A DNA stretch of 64,000 nucleotides from Bifidobacteriaceae bacterium (GTDB lineage Bacteria > Actinomycetota > Actinomycetes > Actinomycetales > WQXJ01). Within the stretch, counting starts at the first letter, position 1, and every line of letters begins with the position of its first letter. A program made the translations under genes and the position numbers. Below, in pieces: positions 3,504 to 48,439 of this stretch. The stretch is from NCBI GenBank assembly GCA_031272885.1, contig JAISSX010000057.1, positions 62,001 through 126,000 on the forward strand, given 5' to 3'. The notes under the pieces are model-generated. The model was not told the DNA's origin. It was given only the letters and a program-made list of their open reading frames with translations, and did not search any database.

Positions 3504-4760
3504 ATGGACTCAGGAAGTACTGCATGGATCTTGACCAGTGCTGCGCTGGTCACGCTGATGTTCCCCGGGCTGGCCTTCTATTACGGCGGCATGACCGGCT
3601 TCAAGACCACCCTGAACATGCTCATGATGGTGTCCGGCGCCTTCTGCGTCGTGGTGGTCGCTTGGGTAGTGATAGGCCACTCGATCTCGTTCGGCAACTC
3701 CTACGGAGGGGCCGGGCTATTGGGCAACGTGACCGAGTACATCGGCATCAAGGGGATGCTGCCAGATGACCCGAACGGCCTACCGCCATACCTGGTGGTG
3801 GCCTTCATGTCGATCTTCGCCGCCCTCACCACCTGCATCGTGGGCGGCGTGGCGGCCGACCGCATCAAGTTCGTCTCCTGGCTGATCTTCGCCGGCGCCT
3901 GGGTCATCCTGGTCTACGGCCCGGTGGCCCACTGGGTGTTCGCCTTCGATTCGGAGGACGGCAGCTACGTGGGTGGCTGGATTGCCAACAAACTGGGCGC
4001 CATCGACTTCGCCGGCGGCACCGCCGTCCACATCAACTCCGGCGCCGCCGGCCTGGCCCTGTGCCTGCTGCTGGGCGTGCGCCGCTCCTGGAACCGCCCA
4101 CCACGGCCCCACTCGCTGCCCTTCGTGCTGCTGGGCGCCATGCTGCTGTGGGCCGGCTGGTACGGCTTCAACGGCGGCTCCGCCCTGGCCAGCGGCAACA
4201 ACGCCGGCGTGGCCCTGGCCAACACCCACTTCGCGGCCGCCGCCGCCACCCTGGGCTGGGTCATCACGGAAAAGATCCGCGACAAGCACGCCACGGCGCT
4301 GGGCGCCGCCTCTGGCATGGTGACCGGCCTGGTGGCCATCACCCCGGCCTGCGGCGCCGTCAACGGCGTGGGCGCCCTCATCCTGGGCGCCACCTCCGGC
4401 GTGCTCTGCGCCTACGGCGTCACCTGGAAGCGCAAGCTGGGCTACGACGATTCGCTCGACGTGGTGGGCATCCACTTCCTGGGCGGCATCTTCGGCACCC
4501 TGATGATCGGCATGCTGGCCGTGCCGGACGCCCCCAACGGCGGCACCGGCCTGTTCTACGGCGGCGGCTTCGGCCTGCTGGGCAAGCAGGCGCTGGCGGC
4601 CGTGGCCGTCATCGCCTACTCCTTCTGCGTCAGCTACGCCATCGGCTGGGTCATCAAGAAGACCATCGGCCTGCGGGTTTCGCCCGATGACGAAGACGCC
4701 GGCCTGGATCTGGTCATCCACGCCGAACGCGCCTACGAGATCCCAGTGGGCGTGGAGTAA
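3504..4760 (+). CDS. amtB: Ammonium transporter (Amt/MEP family)
   Basis: 418 residues starting MDSGSTAWILTSAALVTLMF from ATG 3504, preceded by GAGGAG. Eleven-helix Amt topology is apparent; the pore histidines are represented by AVHINSGAAG and GIHFLGGIFG, and FYYGGM is the typical first-helix motif. It lacks a cleavable signal peptide. It conducts ammonium or ammonia, and possibly methylammonium, into the cell for the adjacent glutamine-synthetase-like and glutamate-synthase-like enzymes. No glnK or glnD follows; the next gene is an XRE-cupin regulator beyond a long inverted repeat. Channel identity is certain, substrate preference is not. Confidence 0.94.
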   Translation: MDSGSTAWILTSAALVTLMFPGLAFYYGGMTGFKTTLNMLMMVSGAFCVVVVAWVVIGHSISFGNSYGGAGLLGNVTEYIGIKGMLPDDPNGLPPYLVVAFMSIFAALTTCIVGGVAADRIKFVSWLIFAGAWVILVYGPVAHWVFAFDSEDGSYVGGWIANKLGAIDFAGGTAVHINSGAAGLALCLLLGVRRSWNRPPRPHSLPFVLLGAMLLWAGWYGFNGGSALASGNNAGVALANTHFAAAAATLGWVITEKIRDKHATALGAASGMVTGLVAITPACGAVNGVGALILGATSGVLCAYGVTWKRKLGYDDSLDVVGIHFLGGIFGTLMIGMLAVPDAPNGGTGLFYGGGFGLLGKQALAAVAVIAYSFCVSYAIGWVIKKTIGLRVSPDDEDAGLDLVIHAERAYEIPVGVE

Positions 4761-4775
4761 ACAGCACCAAGGACC

Positions 4776-4844
4776 ACCCGCCGGCCCTCTCGGACTCACG
4801 GAGATGTCGATCCCCGGGGTTGCGCTGCGAGAGGGCCGGCGGGT
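4776..4844. repeat. 17-bp perfect inverted repeat with 35-nt loop
   Basis: Arms 4776-4792 and 4828-4844 are exact reverse complements, centred on GGCCCTCTCG and CGAGAGGGCC. The loop contains the small palindrome CCCCGGGG. It fills the gap between amtB and the XRE-cupin gene, ending 12 bases before the latter's start. It may act as a terminator of amtB or as an operator or leader structure for the regulator. No T-tract follows. Confidence 0.6.
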
Positions 4845-4856
4845 CCACCCAATACC

Positions 4857-5522
4857 ATGGCTGCTATGACGCACGACATCCCCGCTGCCCAGGCCGGCAG
4901 CGAGGCCCGGGTGGCGCCACCCGTCACGCCCGAAACCCTGCACCAAGAACTGAAGGAAGCCATCGCCGCCCAGGTGCGGGACATCCGCCACGCGCAAGGC
5001 TTGTCCATCGCGGCGGCGGCCGAGCGCATCGGCATCTCGAAGGCCATGCTGTCCAAGATCGAGAACGCCCAGACCTCCTGCTCCCTGGCCACCCTGGCTC
5101 TGCTGGCGGACGGCCTGGATGTCCCGGTGACGTCCTTCTTCCGGGCCGTGGCGGTGGAATCCGAGGCCGTCTTCGTGCCCGCCGGCCACGGCGCCCGGAT
5201 TGTGCGGCGCGGCTCCAAACAGGGCCACCTCTACGAGCTGCTGGGCGCCCTGCGCGGCCCCCACAAGCGGATGGAGGCCGTGCTGGTGACCCTGAACGAC
5301 GAATCCGAGGTCTTCCCTATGTTCCAGCACAGCGGCACCGAGCTGCTCTACATGCTGGAAGGCACCATGGTGTATCACCACGGCGAAGAGGACTACACCA
5401 TGCGCCCGGGCGACGCCCTGCAACTGGACGGCGAAGGCCCCCACGGCCCGGTGGAACTGGTCCGCTTGCCGGCCCGTTTCCTCTCGGTCACGGCCTATCC
5501 GGACAACACCACCCTGGCCTGA
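4857..5522 (+). CDS. XRE-family regulator with C-terminal cupin domain
   Basis: 221 residues. An XRE helix-turn-helix lies at about residues 40-95 (GLSIAAAAERIGISKAMLSK, IENAQTSCSLATLALLADGL). A cupin sensor domain is at about 140-215 (FPMFQHSGTELLYMLEGTMV then GDALQLDGEGPHGP). Such proteins are cytoplasmic repressors or activators whose cupin barrel senses a small ligand. Neighbourhood suggests control of the nitrogen genes, but the target is not shown. A second ATG nine bases downstream is also possible; neither has a strong ribosome site. It ends four bases before the convergent DUF11 gene. Confidence 0.87.
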   Translation: MAAMTHDIPAAQAGSEARVAPPVTPETLHQELKEAIAAQVRDIRHAQGLSIAAAAERIGISKAMLSKIENAQTSCSLATLALLADGLDVPVTSFFRAVAVESEAVFVPAGHGARIVRRGSKQGHLYELLGALRGPHKRMEAVLVTLNDESEVFPMFQHSGTELLYMLEGTMVYHHGEEDYTMRPGDALQLDGEGPHGPVELVRLPARFLSVTAYPDNTTLA

Positions 5523-5526
5523 AACC

Positions 5527-8500
5527 TCAGTCCTGGTAGCGGCGGCGGATGGCGGTACCGGCCCGTAGGCCCCCGCCCAGCAGCACAATCACCAGCGCCC
5601 AAATGGCCAGGCCCAAGGCGTCGGAACCCATCACCGGCAGGCCGCCACCCGGGTTGGGGCTGGGCGAACCGGTGGGCGGCGGCGTCGATGAACCGGGCGG
5701 CGTGGGCGGCGTCGGCGAACCGGTGGGCGGCGTGGGCGAACCGGTGGGCGTCGGCGAAGTGGGCGGCGGCGCCTGAATCACCACCGTGGCCTCGGACCGG
5801 TCATTGGCCGGATCGGTGTCGATGTCGTAGTGCGTCACCACGGCCTGCACCTCCAGCAGGGTGCCAACCGCCCCGCTGGCCCGCCCACTGATGCTGTACA
5901 CCACCATGGCGCCCACCGGCAGGTCGCCGATGTCGCATGTCACCACGTTGCCCATGGCCACGCAGGTGGCGGCCGGGTGGGTGCCGGCAGAACTACTGCT
6001 CCACGTCACCGTGGCACCGGTCAGCCCGCTGGGCAGCGTGAAGGTGACCTTGGTGCCCTCGGTGGCGGCCGGGCCGTTGTTCTCGACAATGGCCGTGTAG
6101 TTCGCCAGGTCGCCGTCGTGGACCACCTCGTCCAGGTACGGGTAGATACGCACCCCCACGTCCGTGGCCGGCGGCTGGTTGGCCGCGTGGCAGGCCTGGG
6201 CCTCGTTGTCACCCGATGACGGGTCAAGGGCGCCCGAACCGACCAGGGCGGCGTTACACAGCGTGCCCGTGTAGTCCTTCGGCACGTCGAAGACGATCTC
6301 CACCGAGGCCGATTCACCCGGTTCGATGGTGCCCACCGAGCAGTTGACCACCTGGTTGATGTCGCGCACATCCGGCGCCGGACAGGTGGCGCCGCCCACC
6401 ACTTGGGCGCTGATCAAACTGGTGCCCTCAGGGACGGCATCGGAAATCGTCACGTCGCGCGCCACCGACGGCCCGGCGTTATAGGCCGTCAAGCGGTAGG
6501 TGGCCGGACGGCCTACCACCAGCGGATTGGGGCTGACCAGCGTCTTGGTGATGGACGTGTCCGCCACGGTGACCACGTTGACGGTGGCCGGGGCAGAGTT
6601 GTTCGAGTAATCGGACTCCGGCGTGGTGGTTGTGGTGATATTGGTCGAGGTGTAGCTGCCGGCCGGAATGTCATCCGGTATGTGGGCCGTCACCGTGCCC
6701 GGAATGGTGAAGTTGGGCAGGAACGAATCCCGGTACGGCGTTTGCGGCCAACCGACACAGTGCACCGAGTAGACCACGTCCAGGCCGCTGCCGGTGTGCG
6801 AGATGGAACAGTCCATGGTGGGGATGTTGACGGCGGCGCAACTATTGGCCGGCCCGTCCGGGCAGTTGATCACAAACCCCTTGGGGAACACCGCGTCCGT
6901 CACCGGATGATCGGCCGTGGACGGGCCCAGGTTGACGCCGGTCAGGGTGAACTTGACGTCGGTGCCGGCGGCCGGGGTGTTGATGTCAACCGAGGCGGTC
7001 ACCGCGATGTCCGCCATCACCTGCAGCAAGGTGGCGTTGTTGGCCGTGTTGTTCAACGTCATGGTGTCCGTGGCCGTGGCGGAACTGACCACGGCCGTGT
7101 TGGTCAACGTGCGCGGGTGCTCGGTGGACGGATCGGCTGGCGGCTCTTCGTCAAGGCAGGTTTCCTCCGGGTCGGTAGACGGGTCCTGGCCCGGGCACCA
7201 GTAGGGCCGCAGGTCACGCGGATCGGTGGTGCCCACCACGCGCACCGAGACGCTGGCACCGGCGTCGATGTGGCCCACCTGGCAGGTCACCACGTACGGG
7301 TTGGTGTTGGTGTCCGATGCCGGGTCTTGCGGCGAGGTGGGCAGGCGGTCCACGAAACAGTGGGGGGAGTTGGGTGGGCTGGCCAGTTCCAGATAGTCGG
7401 CATCGCCCGAGTTGGCGGCAGAGTTGGCCAGGGCCGGCACCACGCCCACCGGCAGGGTGTCCGTCACCACCGCGTCTTCCACCGCCGAAGGCCCGGCGTT
7501 GACGGTGGTCAAGGTATAGCCCACGGAACCGCCGGCGTAGAACGTGGTTGAGTCGGCCGTCTTGTATTGCTGCAGGTCAGCCTGCTGAATTACGTCGTCA
7601 GCCACCTGGGCGGACAGGTTGGTGGCGGCCCCGCTCAGGTTGGGTGTGGTCGATGTCGCGGTGGCCTGGTTGACGGCGCCGCCGTCACTCGAAATCTCGG
7701 CCGTGACATCATCGTCGATGTCGCCGTAGATGTACAGCGTCACCACGTTGGCCGTGCTGCCCTGGCCGGCCGCCACGGTGCCCAACTGGCAGGTGATCAG
7801 GTTGTCGGTACCGGTGCCCGTGTCGCTGATGCTGCACGTGCCCTGGGCCGGGTTGACCTGGGTGGCGTGGAAGCCGTCCGGCAACGTGTCCGTCACCACT
7901 ACCCCGGCGGCATCGGCGGCATCCGCCCGGGCGGTCAAGTCAACCTGGTAGCCGAACTTGGCCCCGGCAATGTAGGCCGGGTGGCCGTCCCCGTTGGGGA
8001 TGGTGCTCAGGGCCGTCTTGGTCAAGCCCAGGTCGGTGCGGGCGGCGGCCACCGTGATGCCGGCGGTCAGGCCGTTGTTGGTGTAGTCCGATTCGGTGGT
8101 GGTGGTCGAAGCCTGGGCCCAGCCGCCCGGGTTGGCGCAGGTCGGGCCGGTGGATGGGTCATAGTCCGCCGGGGCGCAGGCCGGGAAACTGCCCGGCGCA
8201 TCCGAAGGGGCCACCTGGAAGTTGAAGTTGATGGTCAGGGCGGCGCTGGGCTGCAGGCCACCGGCCGCCTGCACCGAGGGCTCCTGGCTGACGTCGCAGA
8301 CCAGCTCCTGGTTAACGGCGTGGCAATAGCTGGGTAGGGTCGACGGGTCGATCAGCGAGGTGACCGCCACGTTGGACAACACCTGCACGGCTTCGGCCAC
8401 CGATGGGCCGTTGTTCACCACGTGGATCGCCACCTGCCAGGTGGAACCGGGGCCGGTGTAGCTACCGGTGGGCGTCAGCGTGAAGCTGTCCACCTCGACA

Positions 8501-11500
8501 TCGGCCACATGACGCACCGTGTCCGTGACCGAGGCCGTGTTATTAGCCTGGGTGGGATCGCCCGTCACCGAGCTGACGGTGGCCGTATTGGTCAACGTGG
8601 TGCCGCGCGCCACCGCACCCACCTGGAACGGGATGCGCAGCGGACCCCACGTGCCGCCCGAGGCCAGATCGGCGGACTTGGTGCAGGTGACGGTCTGTCC
8701 GCTGGCGTTGCATTCGGCCGGCAGCGAGGCCGTCACGATGGTCAGGCCGGCCGGCAGGGTGTCCGTGATGACCGGGAAGGTGGCCTGGTTGGGGCCGGCG
8801 TTGGAGACCGTCAGGTCGTAGTAGCCGCTGTTGGGCACACTGGTGCCGCCCGCCACAATGCCGGACGAGGTCTTGGTGATGGACAGATCGGCCTGGTCGG
8901 AACCGGAGTTGGTCCAGGTGGCGGTGTTATTGGAGTTGTCCGGGTCATCCGGCGTGGCGCCGGCGGTGGCGGTCTGCTGGAAACTGGCCGGCTTGGTGCC
9001 GGAGGTATACAGCCCGGCCTCTTGCATGGTCAGGGTGATGGTGGCCGAGGCGCCGGCCGTCAGGGCGCCGATGGTGCAGTTCAGCGTGGCGCCACTGGGC
9101 TCGGTGCAACTGCCCTGGCTGGGCGTGGCGCTGCCGGTCACATAGGCCAAGACGTCCGTGGGCAGGGTGTCCGTCATGGTGACACCGGTGGCGTCCGAGG
9201 GGCCCAGGTTGGTGACGGTGATGGAATAGGGCACCGTGTCACCCGAGCCCGGGTCCGGCACCGTCACCACCGTGGAGGTCTTGGACAGGGCGATGTCGCT
9301 CTGCCTGGTGACGGTGGTGGTAGCAGTGGCCGTGTTGGGGTGCGGGTCACCGGCCGGTTCGGCGGCGCTTGAGGCGGCCGTGGCCGTGTTGGTGACCGAG
9401 CCGGTGGCCGATGACGCCACCACCACGCCGGTAATGGTCACCGTGGCTACGGCGCCGGCCCCGGAAGTGGGGGTGGCGGGGCCACCCAGGGTGCCGAGCT
9501 GGCAGGTCAGGGTGTTGCCGCCGATACTGCACGAACCGTGGTCGGAGGTGGCCGTGGCCCCGGGGCCGAAGCTGAGCCCGCCCGGCAACGTGTCGGTCAA
9601 AGTGGCCCCGGCGGCATCGGACGGCCCATAGTTGGTGACCTTGACCGTATACCGGATTGTGTTGCCGGCCACCGCCGTGGCGGGTCCGGTCTTGACCACA
9701 CCCAGGTCCGCCACCGGCGCCGCCACGGTAACCGTGGCGGTGGTCAGGTTGTCCGCCTGCGCCGGGTCGAAGGTGGCCGAGGTGACGGAGGCGTTGTTGG
9801 CCACCCCGCTGGCGCCGGCCGCCACGTTGGCGGGCACATACCCGGTCACGGTGACGGTGGCCGTCTCACCCGGGCCCAAGGCGTTGGCCAGGGTGCACTG
9901 GACGGTGGCGTTACTGGTCAGCGTGCCGGGGCAGGTCACCGCCTGGTCGCCTTGGGTGCCGCCGGCGCCCGTGCCGCCGGTGGCGCTGAGCAAAACCAGC
10001 TTGGAAGAATCGGCCACCGAGTCGGTGATGGTGACATCGGTGGCATCCGACAGGCAGGTGCCGGTGGCCGGGCTGGGGCACTGGTTGGTGACGGTGAGAC
10101 GCCATGTGATGGTTTGGCCCGCCGCCGCGGAGATGGTGGACGGGGTCTTGGTGATCTTCAGATCGGCCTGGTGGGTCATGGGGATGGACACGGTGGCCAC
10201 ATTGTTGGACATGTCCGGATCGACCGAGTCGGTGGTGACCTGGGCGATGTTGGTCAAAGTGGTGTCCGTGGTGGCAGAGTCCGGCAGACCCTGGATGGTG
10301 ACGGTGGCGGTGGCGCCGCTGGCCAGGTCGCCGATGCCGCAACTGACCGCACCCGAGACGGGCAGGGCACAACTGGTGCCGGTGGAGCTGACCACCGAGG
10401 TGGCCTCATAGGTGGCCGGGATGGCGTCCGTCACCACCACGTTGGTGGCGGTGTTGGGGCCGTTGTTGGTGACCGTCAAGGTGGTGGTGCCCGCCTGGCC
10501 GGCGATGGCCGGGCTGGGCGTCATGCTCTTGGTAATGGACAGGTCCGCCAGGCGCGACACGGTGATGGTGGCCGGCGGCGTGTCGTACTCGGCCGTCAGG
10601 TGGGTGGTGTCCGTGGTGTAGGCCAGGGAGGCGATGTTGCTCAGCACCGTGCCGCCGGCCGCAGGCAGCACCTTCACCTGGAACTGGTAGTACTGGGTGT
10701 CACCCGGCTGGAGCTGGCCGCCGTGGGAACCGGATGTACTCCAGATGGTGGGCCGGTTGGCGGTGGCCGAGCCGCAGGTGGCAGTCTTGTCCCCACCCAG
10801 GTTGATCGAGACCGTGCGGGTAGAAGCGTCGTAGTAGCCGTAACTGGTGCCGTAATCCGAGATATGCGCCGGCGTCACCACGCACGGGTCGGGGCTGGAC
10901 ACCAGCACCAGCGAGCCGTAGACGTAATCCACCCCGGCCGGCAGTTGATCAGACGAGACCACGCCATCGGCGGCATCCTGGCCGGTATTCGAGTAGGCGA
11001 TGGTGTACTGCAAGGTGTCCCCCGGCTTGGTCCCGGAAGCGCCAGACGTGTTGGTGACCGTCTTCGTGGAGGCCGTGAAGTCAGGGGCGTAAAGGTTGAT
11101 CGCCATGCCCAGCACGCCCGGGAAGTAGACGTCGCCGTTGGAACTGAAGGTGAAGGTGGCGGAGGTGTCGCCGTTCTGCACCGCACCCGAGGCGCCGATG
11201 TTCTTGATGTCGAACCCCAGCATGTTGCGGTAGGCCGGCGTGCGGGCGGTGACAGACGCGCCGTTGGTGTCATCCGTCGAGTTGAAGAAGTTCGAACCGG
11301 GTGAAATGGCGGAGGCCAACTGGGTGTCGTTGAACTTGGTGTAGTCACCGGTGGTTGGCAGGTCGCCCTCGTAGGCCACCATGGTGAGCTGCGTGTCCAC
11401 CTGGCCGGAGGTGGGGGCCTGGAAACCGGACACGGTGATGGTCTTGGTAGAGCCAGACGAGATGTACTCGAAGCCGTCAAACACCGTCAGGTTGCGCAGC

Positions 11501-12219
11501 GGCAGGCCCGGCGCCTGATAGACCACCGTCATGGCCCAGCCCGCATAGCGGTCCGCCCCGGTGCCGGCCACCACGTTGGCACCCCAGTAGGCGCCGTTGC
11601 CGGCCGCCTTGACCAGGGCGGTGATGTCCGCGAACTCCTGGTAGGCGTTCGATGACGACGGGTTGGGGCCGAACTCTTGGGCCGAGTTGATGGTCTGGTA
11701 GCTGGAGGTACCAGGCACCTTGAGCAACATCTGGGTGCGGGTACCGCTGGCGGCCGAGCCGTTGGAGCCGGCGTTCAGCCGGGCGCCCCAATACAGGCCG
11801 GCCCACAGCACCTGGAAACCATCCGGCAGGGCCAGGGTGGCGGAGGAGGAGTTAAAGGTAGAAGCGTCCGAATCGGCATCCAGGTTGACCATGGCGAACG
11901 CGTTGTTGGCCAGCGCGGTGCCGGCCTGCGCCGAGGCGCAGTTGGAGGCCGAGGTGGGGCAGGTCAACAGGTTGTTGCCGATCGAGATGATGGCGCCGTT
12001 GGCGTTGGCCTGGAAGCGCTGGGCGAACGCCACCGTGGGGGCGGCATCGGCCTGCGGGGCCGAACTGGCCACGAAACCGGCGGCGGCCAGGGCGATGGCG
12101 GCCAAGGCAGCCGTGGAGCGTTTGATGAGGAGGGCCAAACCCTTGCCAGCCGGGTGGGCGTGCTCTTGCCGGTGCCGGGGTCTGGGCAGCACGGAGACAC
12201 CATAACCTTGGGGACTCAT
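5527..12219 (-). CDS. Giant DUF11-repeat cell-surface protein with LPVMG-type anchor
   Basis: 2230 residues. A long N-terminal segment is followed by a hydrophobic signal region (about 33-59, ending SSAPQADAA). Residues about 60-390 form an unrecognised globular region. About a dozen DUF11-type beta-sandwich modules follow, each opening with forms such as ADLSITKS, ADLKITKT, ADLGVVKT, TDLGLTKT or ADTSITKT and carrying the VTDTLP signature. A Pro/Thr/Ser-Gly wall-spanning stretch precedes LPVMG at 2194-2198, a transmembrane helix and the tail RRRYQD. The anchor has Met where LPXTG has Thr. It probably extends from the wall as an adhesin or S-layer-like fibre. The start is uncertain because no good ribosome site precedes ATG 12219. 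Confidence 0.88.
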   Translation of the reverse strand: MSPQGYGVSVLPRPRHRQEHAHPAGKGLALLIKRSTAALAAIALAAAGFVASSAPQADAAPTVAFAQRFQANANGAIISIGNNLLTCPTSASNCASAQAGTALANNAFAMVNLDADSDASTFNSSSATLALPDGFQVLWAGLYWGARLNAGSNGSAASGTRTQMLLKVPGTSSYQTINSAQEFGPNPSSSNAYQEFADITALVKAAGNGAYWGANVVAGTGADRYAGWAMTVVYQAPGLPLRNLTVFDGFEYISSGSTKTITVSGFQAPTSGQVDTQLTMVAYEGDLPTTGDYTKFNDTQLASAISPGSNFFNSTDDTNGASVTARTPAYRNMLGFDIKNIGASGAVQNGDTSATFTFSSNGDVYFPGVLGMAINLYAPDFTASTKTVTNTSGASGTKPGDTLQYTIAYSNTGQDAADGVVSSDQLPAGVDYVYGSLVLVSSPDPCVVTPAHISDYGTSYGYYDASTRTVSINLGGDKTATCGSATANRPTIWSTSGSHGGQLQPGDTQYYQFQVKVLPAAGGTVLSNIASLAYTTDTTHLTAEYDTPPATITVSRLADLSITKSMTPSPAIAGQAGTTTLTVTNNGPNTATNVVVTDAIPATYEATSVVSSTGTSCALPVSGAVSCGIGDLASGATATVTIQGLPDSATTDTTLTNIAQVTTDSVDPDMSNNVATVSIPMTHQADLKITKTPSTISAAAGQTITWRLTVTNQCPSPATGTCLSDATDVTITDSVADSSKLVLLSATGGTGAGGTQGDQAVTCPGTLTSNATVQCTLANALGPGETATVTVTGYVPANVAAGASGVANNASVTSATFDPAQADNLTTATVTVAAPVADLGVVKTGPATAVAGNTIRYTVKVTNYGPSDAAGATLTDTLPGGLSFGPGATATSDHGSCSIGGNTLTCQLGTLGGPATPTSGAGAVATVTITGVVVASSATGSVTNTATAASSAAEPAGDPHPNTATATTTVTRQSDIALSKTSTVVTVPDPGSGDTVPYSITVTNLGPSDATGVTMTDTLPTDVLAYVTGSATPSQGSCTEPSGATLNCTIGALTAGASATITLTMQEAGLYTSGTKPASFQQTATAGATPDDPDNSNNTATWTNSGSDQADLSITKTSSGIVAGGTSVPNSGYYDLTVSNAGPNQATFPVITDTLPAGLTIVTASLPAECNASGQTVTCTKSADLASGGTWGPLRIPFQVGAVARGTTLTNTATVSSVTGDPTQANNTASVTDTVRHVADVEVDSFTLTPTGSYTGPGSTWQVAIHVVNNGPSVAEAVQVLSNVAVTSLIDPSTLPSYCHAVNQELVCDVSQEPSVQAAGGLQPSAALTINFNFQVAPSDAPGSFPACAPADYDPSTGPTCANPGGWAQASTTTTESDYTNNGLTAGITVAAARTDLGLTKTALSTIPNGDGHPAYIAGAKFGYQVDLTARADAADAAGVVVTDTLPDGFHATQVNPAQGTCSISDTGTGTDNLITCQLGTVAAGQGSTANVVTLYIYGDIDDDVTAEISSDGGAVNQATATSTTPNLSGAATNLSAQVADDVIQQADLQQYKTADSTTFYAGGSVGYTLTTVNAGPSAVEDAVVTDTLPVGVVPALANSAANSGDADYLELASPPNSPHCFVDRLPTSPQDPASDTNTNPYVVTCQVGHIDAGASVSVRVVGTTDPRDLRPYWCPGQDPSTDPEETCLDEEPPADPSTEHPRTLTNTAVVSSATATDTMTLNNTANNATLLQVMADIAVTASVDINTPAAGTDVKFTLTGVNLGPSTADHPVTDAVFPKGFVINCPDGPANSCAAVNIPTMDCSISHTGSGLDVVYSVHCVGWPQTPYRDSFLPNFTIPGTVTAHIPDDIPAGSYTSTNITTTTTPESDYSNNSAPATVNVVTVADTSITKTLVSPNPLVVGRPATYRLTAYNAGPSVARDVTISDAVPEGTSLISAQVVGGATCPAPDVRDINQVVNCSVGTIEPGESASVEIVFDVPKDYTGTLCNAALVGSGALDPSSGDNEAQACHAANQPPATDVGVRIYPYLDEVVHDGDLANYTAIVENNGPAATEGTKVTFTLPSGLTGATVTWSSSSAGTHPAATCVAMGNVVTCDIGDLPVGAMVVYSISGRASGAVGTLLEVQAVVTHYDIDTDPANDRSEATVVIQAPPPTSPTPTGSPTPPTGSPTPPTPPGSSTPPPTGSPSPNPGGGLPVMGSDALGLAIWALVIVLLGGGLRAGTAIRRRYQD

Positions 12220-44019: not shown

Positions 44020-44601
44020 ATGAAGAAGCTCGCAAAGGTCCTTGCGGTTACCACCATGGCTGCCGGTCTCGCCCTCGGTGGCGGTGCCGCAGCACTTGGC
44101 GCCGCTCCGGCCGCGGATCCCAACCCCAACTACAGCGCTTCGCTGTCCATCGGTGCATCCAGCGCCGCGGCGGGCAGCGCCATCAGCGTTACCGCACGGG
44201 ACTTCCTGCCCGGCGAGCAGATCAAGATCGAGATCTTCTCCGACCCGGTCACGCTTGGCACATTGACCACCGACTCAACCGGCTCGGTCACTGGCTCGCT
44301 GACCCTGCCTGAGACCATCAGCGTGGGCGCGCACACCGTGCGCGGCACCGGCCTCACTTCGGGCCGTACCGCTGAGAGTGCTCTCACGGTGACCGCCATA
44401 GTGGTGGCAGCCGGCCCGTCCAGCACGGCTTCGGTCAGCGGCAGTGCCTCGGCCAGCGCTTCCAGCAACGGCATGCCCAAGGCCGCCAGCGACTCCCCCA
44501 CCACCACCGCTTCCCCCGCCCTCCCGATGGCGGCCGGTGCGGTTCTGCTGCTGGGTATCAGCGCCATGGTGTGGCGCCGGGTCAGGGTGGAAGCCCGCTG
44601 A
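44020..44601 (+). CDS. Small surface protein with signal peptide and C-terminal membrane anchor
   Basis: 193 residues. Signal peptide about 1-33 (KVLAVTTMAAGLALGGGAAA). One Ig-like domain at about 38-130 with GSAISVTARDFLPGEQIKIE and VGAHTVRGTGLTSGRTAES. A Ser/Ala/Thr linker leads to MPKAASDS (from residue 152), a hydrophobic helix (ALPMAAGAVLLLGISAMVW) and RRVRVEAR. This is the architecture of a sortase substrate, but the pentapeptide position reads MPKAA rather than LPXTG. A terminator separates it from the sortase gene. Confidence 0.8.
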   Translation: MKKLAKVLAVTTMAAGLALGGGAAALGAAPAADPNPNYSASLSIGASSAAAGSAISVTARDFLPGEQIKIEIFSDPVTLGTLTTDSTGSVTGSLTLPETISVGAHTVRGTGLTSGRTAESALTVTAIVVAAGPSSTASVSGSASASASSNGMPKAASDSPTTTASPALPMAAGAVLLLGISAMVWRRVRVEAR

Positions 44602-44630
44602 CACCAGCCCTATACAATTTCAAGCCATGA

Positions 44631-44662
44631 AACGGTGGGACGCTCTTGAGCGTCCCACCGTT
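44631..44662 (+). terminator. Rho-independent terminator
   Basis: Perfect 14-bp stem, AACGGTGGGACGCT and its complement, with loop CTTG, followed by CGTTTT (44663-44668). It is 29 bases after the small surface-protein stop and 26 bases before the sortase start. Confidence 0.88.
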
Positions 44663-44688
44663 CGTTTTGCCAAAGGGAAGGTGGGTGT

Positions 44689-45447
44689 GTGAGCCGGACA
44701 GCCCGGATCATCGTGTGGTGCGCCGTGTTCGCCGCCCTGATCGGCGGCATCGCGGCCGTGGTCCTGGTGCTGGGCGGCTCCAAGCCGGCCACCATCGACT
44801 CCAGCCAGGTCGGCTCCACCAGCACCGCGGGTGGTGCCACCGGCACCGGTGGCACCGGGACACCCAACGGCTACGTCACCCTGCCGGCCACCGACCCTGG
44901 GCAACCGGCCCAGCCGCGCCACATCACCATCCCCGCCATCGGCGTCGACGCCGCCATCTTGCCCTACGACAAGGCGGCGGCCGAGGCTGGCTACGACGGC
45001 TACGCCGAGATGCCCTGCTTCCAGAACGACACCATCGTCTGTGTCGACCCACCCACCATGGAAGACGTCTACTGGCAGGTGGGCGGGCTGTATGGGGTGG
45101 CCTGGGGCGACATGCCTGGCACCGAGACCCGCGGCACGGTCTACCTGTATGGGCACGCCGGCAACCCGGCCTCGAACCCCGTCTTCAACGACCTGTCGGA
45201 GTTGCAGCCGGGTGACACGGCCGAGGTCAGCACCGACTTCGGCATCTTCACCTACACGGTCGAATCGGTCCGCAACCTGCCCAAGGACAGTTACACCACC
45301 GATCCTGAGATACTGAAACAAGAGGGCGGCCGCCTGCTGCTGGTGACCTGTTACCACGGCGACGATGCCGAGTTGAAGAACGGTTTCGCGGTCGACAACA
45401 CGGTGGCCACCTTGACCTTGACCTCGGTGAGGGAACCAGATGAGTAG
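44689..45447 (+). CDS. Sortase (class E/F-like) lacking an obvious catalytic Arg
   Basis: 252 residues from GTG 44689. N-terminal transmembrane helix at about 7-30, a Gly/Thr-rich linker, then the sortase beta-barrel. Catalytic His156 is in VYLYGHAGN and Cys221 in LLVTCYHGDD. In related enzymes an Arg lies 8-15 residues after the Cys (a YRxNVVV-like strand); here the corresponding stretch is GFAVDNTVATLTL with no Arg. It would attach surface proteins to the wall. The stop overlaps the LCP gene start by eight bases. Confidence 0.86.
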   Translation: MSRTARIIVWCAVFAALIGGIAAVVLVLGGSKPATIDSSQVGSTSTAGGATGTGGTGTPNGYVTLPATDPGQPAQPRHITIPAIGVDAAILPYDKAAAEAGYDGYAEMPCFQNDTIVCVDPPTMEDVYWQVGGLYGVAWGDMPGTETRGTVYLYGHAGNPASNPVFNDLSELQPGDTAEVSTDFGIFTYTVESVRNLPKDSYTTDPEILKQEGGRLLLVTCYHGDDAELKNGFAVDNTVATLTLTSVREPDE

Positions 45448-46537
45448 GCACGGACGCCACGCTGCCCCGGCCGGCCCGGAGGAGGCCGCCCAGGGCAGCC
45501 CCGCCGGCCTGCCGGCGGGCCCAGACGGCGCCAAGGCCAAGCGCCGCAAAGGCCCACGCTGGCGCCGCTGGCTGCTGCGCAGCCTGGCCGTGGCGATGGC
45601 GTTGGTGTTGGTGGTCATCCTGGGCCTGTCCCTGGAGGCCTCCCTGCTGCTGCGCAAGGTGGAGCGCTTCGCCATCCCTGAGACCGTTGCGGACACGCCA
45701 GGCGAAACCTGGGTCATTGTCGGCTCCGATTCCCGGGCCGATCTACCCGAGGGCGAAGACATCTATACGGCCACCGCCGTCACCGATGTCGACGGCGACC
45801 GCTCCGACCTGGTGCTGGTGATCCAGGCCCGGCCCGGCCAATCGCCCTACGTCTTCTCGATTCCGCGTGACCTGGTGCTGCCCAGGGCCGATTCGGACAA
45901 GGAGGAACGCCTGTCGAAGGCCCTGGAGGGCGGCCGGGCCGAAGTGGTGGGTGCCTTGTGCGTTGGCCTGGGCATTCCCACCGACCATATGGTGGAGGTG
46001 ACATTCGGTGGTTTCTCCCGCATTGTCGACCGCCTGGGCGGCATCGAGATCTACCTGGACAAACCCACCCGCGACAACCTGTCCGAGCTGGAACTGCACG
46101 AAGCCGGCAACCAGACCCTGGATGGGCGCACCGCCCTGGCGCTGCTGCGCTCTCGCCACCCCCAATACTTGATCGACGGCACCTGGCAAGAGGTTGACCC
46201 AATCACCGGCACGGCCGCCCGCACGGCCAACTCGGCCAAGGTCTTTGAGGCCCTTCGCGTGGCCGCCAAGACCCAGATCCAGGCCAACTTGACCCACCCC
46301 AAGGAACTGCACTCGCTGATCAGCGACCTGGCCGCCAACATCACGGCCGATGAAGACGTCTCGCTGTGGTCGGTCATCCAACTGGGCCGGTCGGTGCTAA
46401 ACCCGGCCTCCATCGTCACCCTGGAAGGCCAAACCACCGACACGGAACTGGCCATCTTCCCCAACGAGGCCACCTACGCCGCCCTTGAAGAGGCCGGTTA
46501 CGGGCTAGGCCAATGCTCCATGGCCCCGGCCGAATAA
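45440..46537 (+). CDS. LytR-CpsA-Psr (LCP) family protein
   Basis: 365 residues. Cytoplasmic basic N-terminus (KAKRRKGPRWRRW), one transmembrane helix at about 48-72, then an extracellular LCP domain: WVIVGSDSRADLPEG, RSDLVLVIQARPGQSPYVFS, IPRDLVLPRADSDKEERLSK, VDRLGGIEIYLDKPTRDN and GRTALALLRSRHPQYLIDG. These enzymes attach teichoic acids, arabinogalactan or capsule to peptidoglycan. Translationally coupled to the sortase gene through an 8-bp overlap. It ends one base before the convergent DUF3039 gene. Confidence 0.92.
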   Translation: MSRHGRHAAPAGPEEAAQGSPAGLPAGPDGAKAKRRKGPRWRRWLLRSLAVAMALVLVVILGLSLEASLLLRKVERFAIPETVADTPGETWVIVGSDSRADLPEGEDIYTATAVTDVDGDRSDLVLVIQARPGQSPYVFSIPRDLVLPRADSDKEERLSKALEGGRAEVVGALCVGLGIPTDHMVEVTFGGFSRIVDRLGGIEIYLDKPTRDNLSELELHEAGNQTLDGRTALALLRSRHPQYLIDGTWQEVDPITGTAARTANSAKVFEALRVAAKTQIQANLTHPKELHSLISDLAANITADEDVSLWSVIQLGRSVLNPASIVTLEGQTTDTELAIFPNEATYAALEEAGYGLGQCSMAPAE

Positions 46538-46939: not shown

Positions 46940-48439
46940 ATGCCGAACCCGAAACGTCTTCCCGTCAGACACGCCAAAGAGGGCACCCTGCCGGCCCGCG
47001 CCCCCACCTGGTTGGCGCGCGCCCTGGCCGTGGCCCTATTGGTTGCCGTCATGGCGGCCGCCTGGTCACTGATCAACCTGGATGTGCTGCCGCCCCGCTA
47101 CCTGGCCGTCTTGGCCGTGGTCGCGGTGGGCGCCACCATCGCCATCGGGCTGGGCCTGTGGTTCGTCAAGGTGCCACCCCAATCCGGCCGGCTGACCGTA
47201 CTGGGCGGCCTGGCGGCAGCCGGCATCACCGGCTGCCTGTTCGCCACCCAGGCCGGCCACGAGGTGACCTCGTTTGTGGACAAGGCCAACGAGGTCCACC
47301 AGGCCCGCACCGGCTACAGCGTCATCTCCCTGCTCAGCCACGATCCGGAACTGACCTCGCTGGAAGGCCAACTGGTGGGCCAGTTGGCCACTGACTCCAA
47401 CAAGGCCGACGTTGCCCGCACCCTGGGCCAGTTGGTGCCGGTCGAGATGACCGAACTGAACGAGCCGGGCGACTTGGCGAGCGCCTTGACCAACGGCGAG
47501 ATCGAAGGCGCCGTCCTGGATTCGAACTTCTTGGACATGTACAAGGAGGCGCTACCGGAGTTCTACGAGTCCATCCAGGTGATGGCCACCTTCGAGGTGG
47601 TCGCCCTGGTGACGGCCGCCGCCGCCGAACAGACCAAACCGGCCCGCGCGGCCGGCGATGACAGCCCATTCGTGGTCTATATCAGCGGCATCGACACCTT
47701 CGGTTCGATCGACCTAACGTCAAGATCGGACGTCAACATTCTGGTGGTGATCAACCCGGCCGAACACCGCATCCTGTTGGTCAACACGCCGCGGGATTAC
47801 TACGTCCAGTTGCACGGCACCACGGGCGTCAAGGACAAGCTGACACATGCCGGTATCTATGGCATCCAAATGTCGATCGACACCCTGGAAGACCTCTATG
47901 ACATTTCGATCGACTACTACGTTCGGATCAATTTCAGTTCCCTGGTCAAGATCGTCAACACGGTGGGCGGCATCGACGTCGAATCGGAGTATTCCTTCAC
48001 CTCCAAGTACGGCCACTACTGGTTCTCACAAGGTGTCAACCATTTGAACGGTGACCAAGCGCTGGGCTTCGCGCGCGAACGCTACGCCTTCGGCGGGGGC
48101 GACCGGGTGCGCGGCGAGAACCAGCAGCGCGTCATCAAAGCCCTCATCACCAAGGCCATGGAGCCGCAGAACCTGGCCAACTACTCCGACATCCTGGCCT
48201 CGATCGAGGGTGCCATCCAGATGACCGTGCCCATGGAAGAGATCTCCGCCCTGGTGCGCGACCAACTCAATGCGCCGGCCAGTTGGCAGGTCGACATGGT
48301 CAGCGCGGACGGCACCGATTCATCCCAGCCCACCTATTCGATGGGTTCGGTCTATTCGTACGTCATGATTCCGGACGATGCCTCGATCGAGGCCGTTCGG
48401 GCCGCCATCGAAGACGTGCTGGCTCAGCCGGAAGGCTGA
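46940..48439 (+). CDS. LCP family protein with three transmembrane helices and an extra extracellular domain
   Basis: 499 residues. Three helices at about 23-44, 52-75 and 84-104. Residues about 125-225 (SLEGQLVGQLATDSNKADVA, NEPGDLASALTNGEIEGAVL, MYKEALPEFYESIQVM) look like a degenerate substrate-binding-protein fold. The LCP domain spans about 235-430 (YISGIDTFGSIDLTSRSDVN, LLVNTPRDYYVQLHG, INFSSLVKIVNTVGGIDVES, LNGDQALGFARERYAFGGGD). This architecture is more usual in Firmicutes LCP proteins. It probably transfers glycopolymers to the wall. The 3' end overlaps the convergent kinase gene by 16 bases. Confidence 0.9.
   Translation: MPNPKRLPVRHAKEGTLPARAPTWLARALAVALLVAVMAAAWSLINLDVLPPRYLAVLAVVAVGATIAIGLGLWFVKVPPQSGRLTVLGGLAAAGITGCLFATQAGHEVTSFVDKANEVHQARTGYSVISLLSHDPELTSLEGQLVGQLATDSNKADVARTLGQLVPVEMTELNEPGDLASALTNGEIEGAVLDSNFLDMYKEALPEFYESIQVMATFEVVALVTAAAAEQTKPARAAGDDSPFVVYISGIDTFGSIDLTSRSDVNILVVINPAEHRILLVNTPRDYYVQLHGTTGVKDKLTHAGIYGIQMSIDTLEDLYDISIDYYVRINFSSLVKIVNTVGGIDVESEYSFTSKYGHYWFSQGVNHLNGDQALGFARERYAFGGGDRVRGENQQRVIKALITKAMEPQNLANYSDILASIEGAIQMTVPMEEISALVRDQLNAPASWQVDMVSADGTDSSQPTYSMGSVYSYVMIPDDASIEAVRAAIEDVLAQPEG

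Follow-up and report, generated by a model that had tools for sequence, protein, structure and literature searches.

Locus organization

The analysed window is a 64,000-nucleotide stretch (G000:C59:62001-126000) of a draft genome (2.95 Mb, 95% complete), in which three same-strand genes at 44020-46537 encode a 193-aa surface protein (P0002), a 252-aa sortase with a GTG start and a 365-aa LytR-CpsA-Psr (LCP) enzyme (Table 1). The sortase and LCP genes share 8 bases where the former ends and the latter starts, and the 87 bases that separate the surface-protein and sortase genes contain a hairpin that folds 4.6 sd below shuffled sequences (z -4.6). This hairpin, which may keep expression of the sortase below that of its partner, was not listed in a scan for consensus terminators, the rule of which demands a loop of 3-8.

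Table 1. Features of the sortase locus (positions are those of the window).
Feature	Position	Strand	Basis or remark
Surface protein P0002, 193 aa, proposed substrate	44020..44601	+	Sequence, predicted structure
MPKAASD (residues 152-158), proposed sorting signal	44473..44493	+	Sequence; Pro153 invariant in 5-row alignment
Perfect 15-bp inverted repeat, 2-base loop, then CGTTTTG	44631..44662	+	Terminator-like hairpin in the substrate/sortase gap
Sortase of the Asn type from a class F-like sister branch, with an N-terminal helix and a complete sortase fold	44689..45447	+	Pfam, AF2, structure comparison
Catalytic His156	45154..45156	+	H in 12/12 W, 16/16 M, 66/66 F and 30/30 class E rows
Arg215 (Cys-6, first residue of β7), conserved basic residue	45331..45333	+	R in 12/12 W and 15/16 M rows
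Catalytic Cys221	45349..45351	+	C in 122/124 rows; S in 2, both from a single gene (L011 and L038)
Asn237, where other sortases carry the catalytic Arg	45397..45399	+	AF2 model, alignments
LCP enzyme, 365 aa	45440..46537	+	PF03816, 69.8 bits
Neighbouring second LCP protein (499 aa), not observed as a member of the conserved cassette	46940..48439	+	PF03816, 134.2 bits

Within the window's own branch of sortases (group W, see below), an LCP gene adjoins the sortase gene at all nine loci with enough sequence (the window, L036, L037/L173, L038/L172, L039, L040, L041, L170 and L171), and PF03816 is above cut-off at each; the tenth locus (L009/L042) ends at a contig end and lies outside this count. 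A surface-protein gene is found upstream at all eight W loci whose contig extends there. The named relatives (seven loci) comprise MAGs labelled Bifidobacteriaceae, a Micrococcales MAG, a Propionibacteriaceae MAG and Microbacterium sp. SYP-A9085, and MAGs of such relatives are presumably termite-gut derived. No LCP gene was tagged by regular expression in the 18 regions around group M and class F sortases (L152-L169), which indicates that the LCP linkage is a trait of group W. A search of the published literature for this cassette found no paper on it.

Two variants of this arrangement were observed. A second cassette with an Arg-less sortase is present in the same genome (L170:4456-7599, on G000:C56), where the order is surface protein, LCP enzyme and sortase, followed by a gene that resembles proA by eye. 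At L172 (G015), a paralog without Cys and Asn (4735-5559, the same gene as L011) lies in tandem with an intact sortase, and each of the two has its own LCP gene.

A sortase with Asn at the position of the catalytic Arg

The enzyme matches the Pfam Sortase family PF04203 at 49.3 bits (cut-off 26.6). Its AF2 model, with mean pLDDT values of 89-98 for ten-residue blocks between residues 71 and 250, predicts a complete sortase fold (Z up to 15.8; Z 15.1 versus 5cuw, SrtE1). When solved structures were searched by sequence, the best matches belonged to other classes, 4d70 being the best twice (E 3.3e-6 and E 0.0029).

The initial annotation had named His156 and Cys221 and an Arg-less strand after Cys221 (GFAVDNTV). 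Both residues are present at these positions, and the sequence of the strand, YHGDDAELKNGFAVDNTVATLTLT, contains no Arg, so the window sortase lacks the full His-Cys-Arg triad of the sortase superfamily and has Asn237 where the Arg would be. The AF2 model assigns residues 215-221 to β7 and 236-248 to β8, which makes Asn237 the second residue of β8. The β8 strand of Streptomyces coelicolor SrtE1 spans Y328-P341 and includes Arg329 (PMC5148588; this and the other PMC sources cited here are excerpts of the papers), and comparison of our model with this description places Asn237 at the position of Arg329. A count of the sortase genes in the genome, proposed alongside the initial annotation, gave three: the window gene, the class E enzyme L001, which scores 225.8 bits on the class E model (cut-off 160) and has its β8 Arg in KQRYIVW, and the paralog L002, which also lacks the Arg (GGYAANNLVA).

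Related sortases share this substitution. A class F profile search gave 101 rows, some genes being counted twice and 11 rows not reaching the β8 site; this site is Asn in all 90 covering rows. For a joint alignment of 124 domains, 12 rows from the window's branch (10 distinct genes) were designated W, 66 non-W rows with Arg at Cys-4 F, the remaining 16 non-W Asn-type rows M, and 30 rows class E; Arg at Cys-4 in 66/66 F rows thus holds by construction. Site 237 is Asn in all 66 F, all 16 M and 10 W rows. Both W gaps come from a single gene that entered the set twice with its row cut short, and its residue was taken from a full-length alignment. Class E has Arg in 27 rows and gaps in 3, its cores having been chosen by a pattern, passed by all 30 loci, that already requires Arg 5-25 residues after the Cys. 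In a held-out set of 28 loci from a class-wide search (L180 being the same gene as L030), the β8 site is Asn in 25 of the 25 covered. The one gene behind the W gaps is the Cys-less paralog L011 (IESDHRDG), which is also devoid of the Asn and reads G there (QAAQGLAVV).

Conservation through these relatives shows that the Arg-less site is more than chance. Replacement of the Arg by Asn is in print for actinobacterial class F enzymes (PMC6998099, crediting Malik and Kim 2019), and the central point of the finding is therefore already known for the group. The altered active site proposed in the initial annotation is supported, but as a trait of a large class F-like group rather than a peculiarity of this gene.

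A substitute basic residue was sought, as the initial annotation had advised. A conserved candidate, Arg215 on β7, is present, but it lies six residues from Cys221 and does not clearly refute that annotation. Around the Cys the window enzyme reads GRLLLVTCYHG, with Leu at Cys-4 and Arg at Cys-6, and Arg is found at Cys-6 in 27/28 W and M rows together. Among loci above the class F cut-off, both Arg at Cys-4 and Asn at the β8 site occur in 57/57; L032, which is also above the cut-off (170.9 bits), has Arg at neither Cys-4 nor Cys-6 and lies outside the 57. Of the 25 covered held-out rows, 23 carry Arg at Cys-4 or Cys-6 and the other two have His at Cys-4, and class E has Thr at Cys-4 in 30/30 rows. 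These patterns could reflect an active enzyme in which the catalytic Arg was relocated to β7, to Cys-4 in class F proper and to Cys-6 in the window's branch. However, Cys-6 would be roughly 20 Å from Cys221 along the strand (an estimate at ~3.3 Å per residue), which is too far for transition-state contact, and L032 has an Arg at neither place; we regard such a relocation as improbable.

Two further residues were considered as substitutes. Lys199 in the β6/β7 loop is K or R in 12/12 W rows and K in 15/16 M and 60/66 F rows; it was dropped as a general answer because just 16 of the 25 covered held-out rows have K or R there. His223 (Cys+2) was rejected as well, being H in 10/12 W rows, outside the four commonest residues of M, and G in 66/66 F rows.

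Class placement

The window sortase scores 47.6 bits on the class F NCBIfam model NF033748 (IPR042001), below the cut-off of 166, and the paralog L002 scores 41.0 bits; on the class E NCBIfam model the window sortase reaches 17.6 bits (cut-off 160). The enzyme carries the class F mark of Asn for Arg described in PMC6998099 and lacks another, the Arg at Cys-4 (LRxITC). A tree computed without sites 129, 199, 215, 217 and 237 splits the Asn-type rows from class E at 100/99. It sets 29 F and 4 M rows apart from W as a class F group (97/92), and W itself forms a single branch with moderate support (86/88), so the window sortase does not group inside class F. Six M rows (L020, L021, L023, L032, L035 and L121) are class F-like around the Cys, and the four of these that were put on the tree join class F.

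By sequence, the window enzyme belongs to a divergent branch that is sister to class F. It shares with class F the retained His and Cys, the β8 Arg-to-Asn replacement, Trp at site 129, and a gene that often stands beside one for an exported, C-terminally anchored protein without LPXTG. In contrast to class F, the window branch has its Arg at Cys-6 instead of Cys-4, no CGG after the Cys, an attached LCP gene, a separate position on the tree, partner motifs like MPKAASD in place of PxGGVxTG, and a Cys110/Cys118 pair that is present in 12/12 W rows (two Cys before His156 occur in 0/112 other rows). Class E, as represented by SrtE1 (5cuw) and the genome's own L001, has the sortase fold in common with the window enzyme but differs in its β8 Arg, in Pro at site 199 and in His at site 129.

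The structure 5uus, titled SrtF (C. diphtheriae), was rejected as a class F template, as it aligns with class E including the Arg in TTCHPQFSNAERMIV; the name class F therefore covers two things. P. acnes SrtF, which may be of either the Arg or the Asn type, is reported to be active on LPQTGE (PMC7451113). Of the 119 genomes searched in the order, 93 contain a match to class F with an E-value of 0.001 or better, and 34 have one above the cut-off.

Partner proteins and their C-terminal tails

P0002 has a hydrophobic N-terminus by sequence and a single predicted Ig-like β-sandwich (residues 41-125, pLDDT mostly above 90), followed by a Ser-rich linker that includes MPKAASD, a C-terminal membrane helix and the tail RRVRVEAR. 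Its match to the NCBIfam GxPGS_dom model is weak (23.1 bits, cut-off 45). The MPKAA noted in the initial annotation is thus confirmed at the sorting position, as MPKAASD ahead of the membrane anchor; an LPXTG pentapeptide is absent before this helix. Among 67 C-terminally anchored tails adjacent to Asn-type sortases, the window gene being counted twice, none contains LPXT[GA], from which we infer that specificity would be altered, as that annotation had suggested.

Partner tails in group W read MPKAASD, LPRASND, VPKVISD, VPTGNTG, VPGAATD (at L041), LPVIETG (twice) and APGSATD. Three W partners are off-motif, namely G015b, L170 (tail IPGAV) and L172:3465-4775 (G015, IPGAVW before the anchor). 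The pattern [VLIMA]P...[TSN][DG], fitted to the same rows in which it covers 8/10 W and 6/7 M partners (8/11 W with L172:3465-4775 added), was rejected as a common signal, as it occurs in 0/13 held-out loci with Arg at Cys-6. A looser phi-P-x-A core, chosen after seeing those tails, fits 8/13 of them. Four of the eleven W partners end at or just past the motif without a membrane anchor, and these count against our preferred reading in that they make the assignment of a sorting signal weaker. A lone assembly error is unlikely to explain such ends, since two tandem genes in G016 agree.

Two side observations concern tandem genes. The G016 pair (L171:913-1719 and 1853-2683) encodes two surface proteins, each terminating in GGRLPVIETGI(GL) without a membrane anchor. 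At both L152 and L153, Asn-type sortases stand in tandem and have several partners each; no LCP gene was tagged there, and six of the partner tails read VPxAxTDGA ahead of the anchor.

Beside the F rows, an adjacent C-terminally anchored protein is found in 50/66 cases, 42 of the 50 with the pattern P.G[GS].{2,3}[TA]G (for example MPAGGVQTG); the same script gave an anchored neighbour for 4/30 class E rows, none with the pattern. In held-out tails the pattern occurs in 5/6 loci with Arg at Cys-4, 0/2 with His at Cys-4 and 2/13 with Arg at Cys-6. An NCBI model of a C-terminal signal, the GVDTG sorting domain NF058571, matches the three class F partners scanned (L162, L166 and L167) with scores of 27.6, 29.4 and 29.8 bits (cut-off 29), but does not match P0002. 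Two class F neighbours with a signal peptide, a membrane segment, a basic tail and no pentapeptide have been described as perhaps being substrates (PMC13251363).

The window also encodes, on the reverse strand at 5527-12219, a protein of 2230 aa that contains 11 DUF11 stretches and carries an LPVMG tail (GGGLPVMGSD...RRRYQD). The initial annotation had linked this giant protein to the Arg-less sortase system, a link that finds no support, as an Arg-containing class E sortase and several LPXTG-type proteins are encoded in the same genome. LPVMG also ends L081, and L073-L078 end in LPYTG, LPFTG, LPYTG, LPFTG, LPVSG and LPITG. A sorting system shared by the MPKAA and LPVMG proteins was rejected because the LPVMG tail groups with these LPXTG-type tails, and from its sequence the tail would fit the class E sortase as its natural partner.

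Could L001 also anchor the MPKAA protein, with the Arg-less sortase serving something else? The initial annotation had named service by a second, canonical sortase as grounds for refutation, and the genome does encode a canonical enzyme: L001 belongs to class E and retains the Arg, and the genome's LPXTG-type tails vary at their third and fourth residues. However, L001 is not beside these genes, whereas a conserved partner gene accompanies the Arg-less sortase in differently named taxa (L039, L040 and L041), and MPKAASD is unlike the genome's LPXTG-type tails. Anchoring by L001 is hence very improbable.

The LCP enzyme and a proposed pathway

The window LCP enzyme keeps the Arg residues of PRD and RSRH plus two Cys, which were matched by motif, not by alignment, to R149, R266, C179 and C365 of Actinomyces oris LcpA. 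LcpA needs these residues, and in A. oris the protein GspA is glycosylated by LcpA and anchored by SrtA (PMC6381275). As in the GspA-LcpA-SrtA system, an LCP enzyme with similar Arg and Cys residues is here genetically linked to a surface protein, wall-anchored in A. oris; by this analogy, the surface protein is probably glycosylated before anchoring. In contrast to the A. oris sortase, which is a housekeeping enzyme (5utt aligns with the class E enzyme L001), the present locus has its own Asn-type sortase. The cassette LCP enzyme of the paralog L002 has AYRG in place of the RSRH of the others, which counts against our preferred reading.

We propose that the locus is a dedicated cassette in which an active Asn-type sortase anchors its own, probably glycosylated partner through a non-LPXTG signal, and we give this reading a probability of about 0.55. 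The Ig-like protein would be exported and retained through its C-terminal helix, the adjacent LCP enzyme would add a glycopolymer to it, and the sortase would then cut at or near MPKAASD and link the protein to the cell wall. Cys221 would attack with His156 as the base, the side-chain amide of Asn237 would assume the stabilizing role of the Arg guanidinium as an oxyanion donor, and Arg215 on β7 would help to hold the substrate. Papain-like proteases use Gln, an oxyanion analogy for the Asn amide. The roles of Asn237 and Arg215, the cleavage site, glycosylation and wall linkage are all putative; judged from its sequence, the enzyme most likely has sortase activity.

The Arg is reported as essential in sortase mutagenesis, its change to Ala having abolished activity of the F. 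alocis enzyme (PMC13257024), so the Asn enzyme could be weak or dead. Actinoplanes missouriensis showed no phenotype when every one of its four class F sortase genes was deleted (PMC13251363, as far as the excerpt describes), which also speaks against our proposal. Both reports would suit a non-catalytic sortase, its fold kept as a membrane scaffold that presents the surface protein to the LCP enzyme with no cleavage, as would the four partners without an anchor to cleave away and the occurrence of Cys-less L011 beside an intact copy. However, His and Cys are retained in all W genes except L011, and the loss of the Asn from that same Cys-less copy suggests joint retention of Cys and Asn for catalysis. 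A purely scaffolding role is thus rather unlikely, and anchoring of the probably glycosylated partner by an active enzyme is the reading that we carry forward.

Significance

Class F-like sortases are common in the searched actinobacterial genomes, and they are described as having no assigned role in the excerpts of PMC13251363 and PMC6998099. A His-Cys-Arg triad is claimed for all sortases by PMC13257024 and PMC8361268. Extended to the whole group, our proposal would make the Asn-type sortases a large branch of active transpeptidases. These would rely on an Asn amide instead of the Arg regarded as universal, and would recognize signals that are either elongated, as with PxGGVxTG of class F, or of the Ala type, as with phi-P-x-A of the window's branch, with the window's branch residing in self-contained glycosylate-and-anchor cassettes of one surface protein each; this generalization is tentative, possible but with the odds against it. 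As the gene pairs provide, for many of these enzymes, a substrate together with a likely signal, activity can be tested with peptides from the neighbouring genes instead of LPXTG. If active, the Asn-type enzymes would demonstrate that Arg is dispensable for the sortase reaction, and they would provide orthogonal ligation enzymes.
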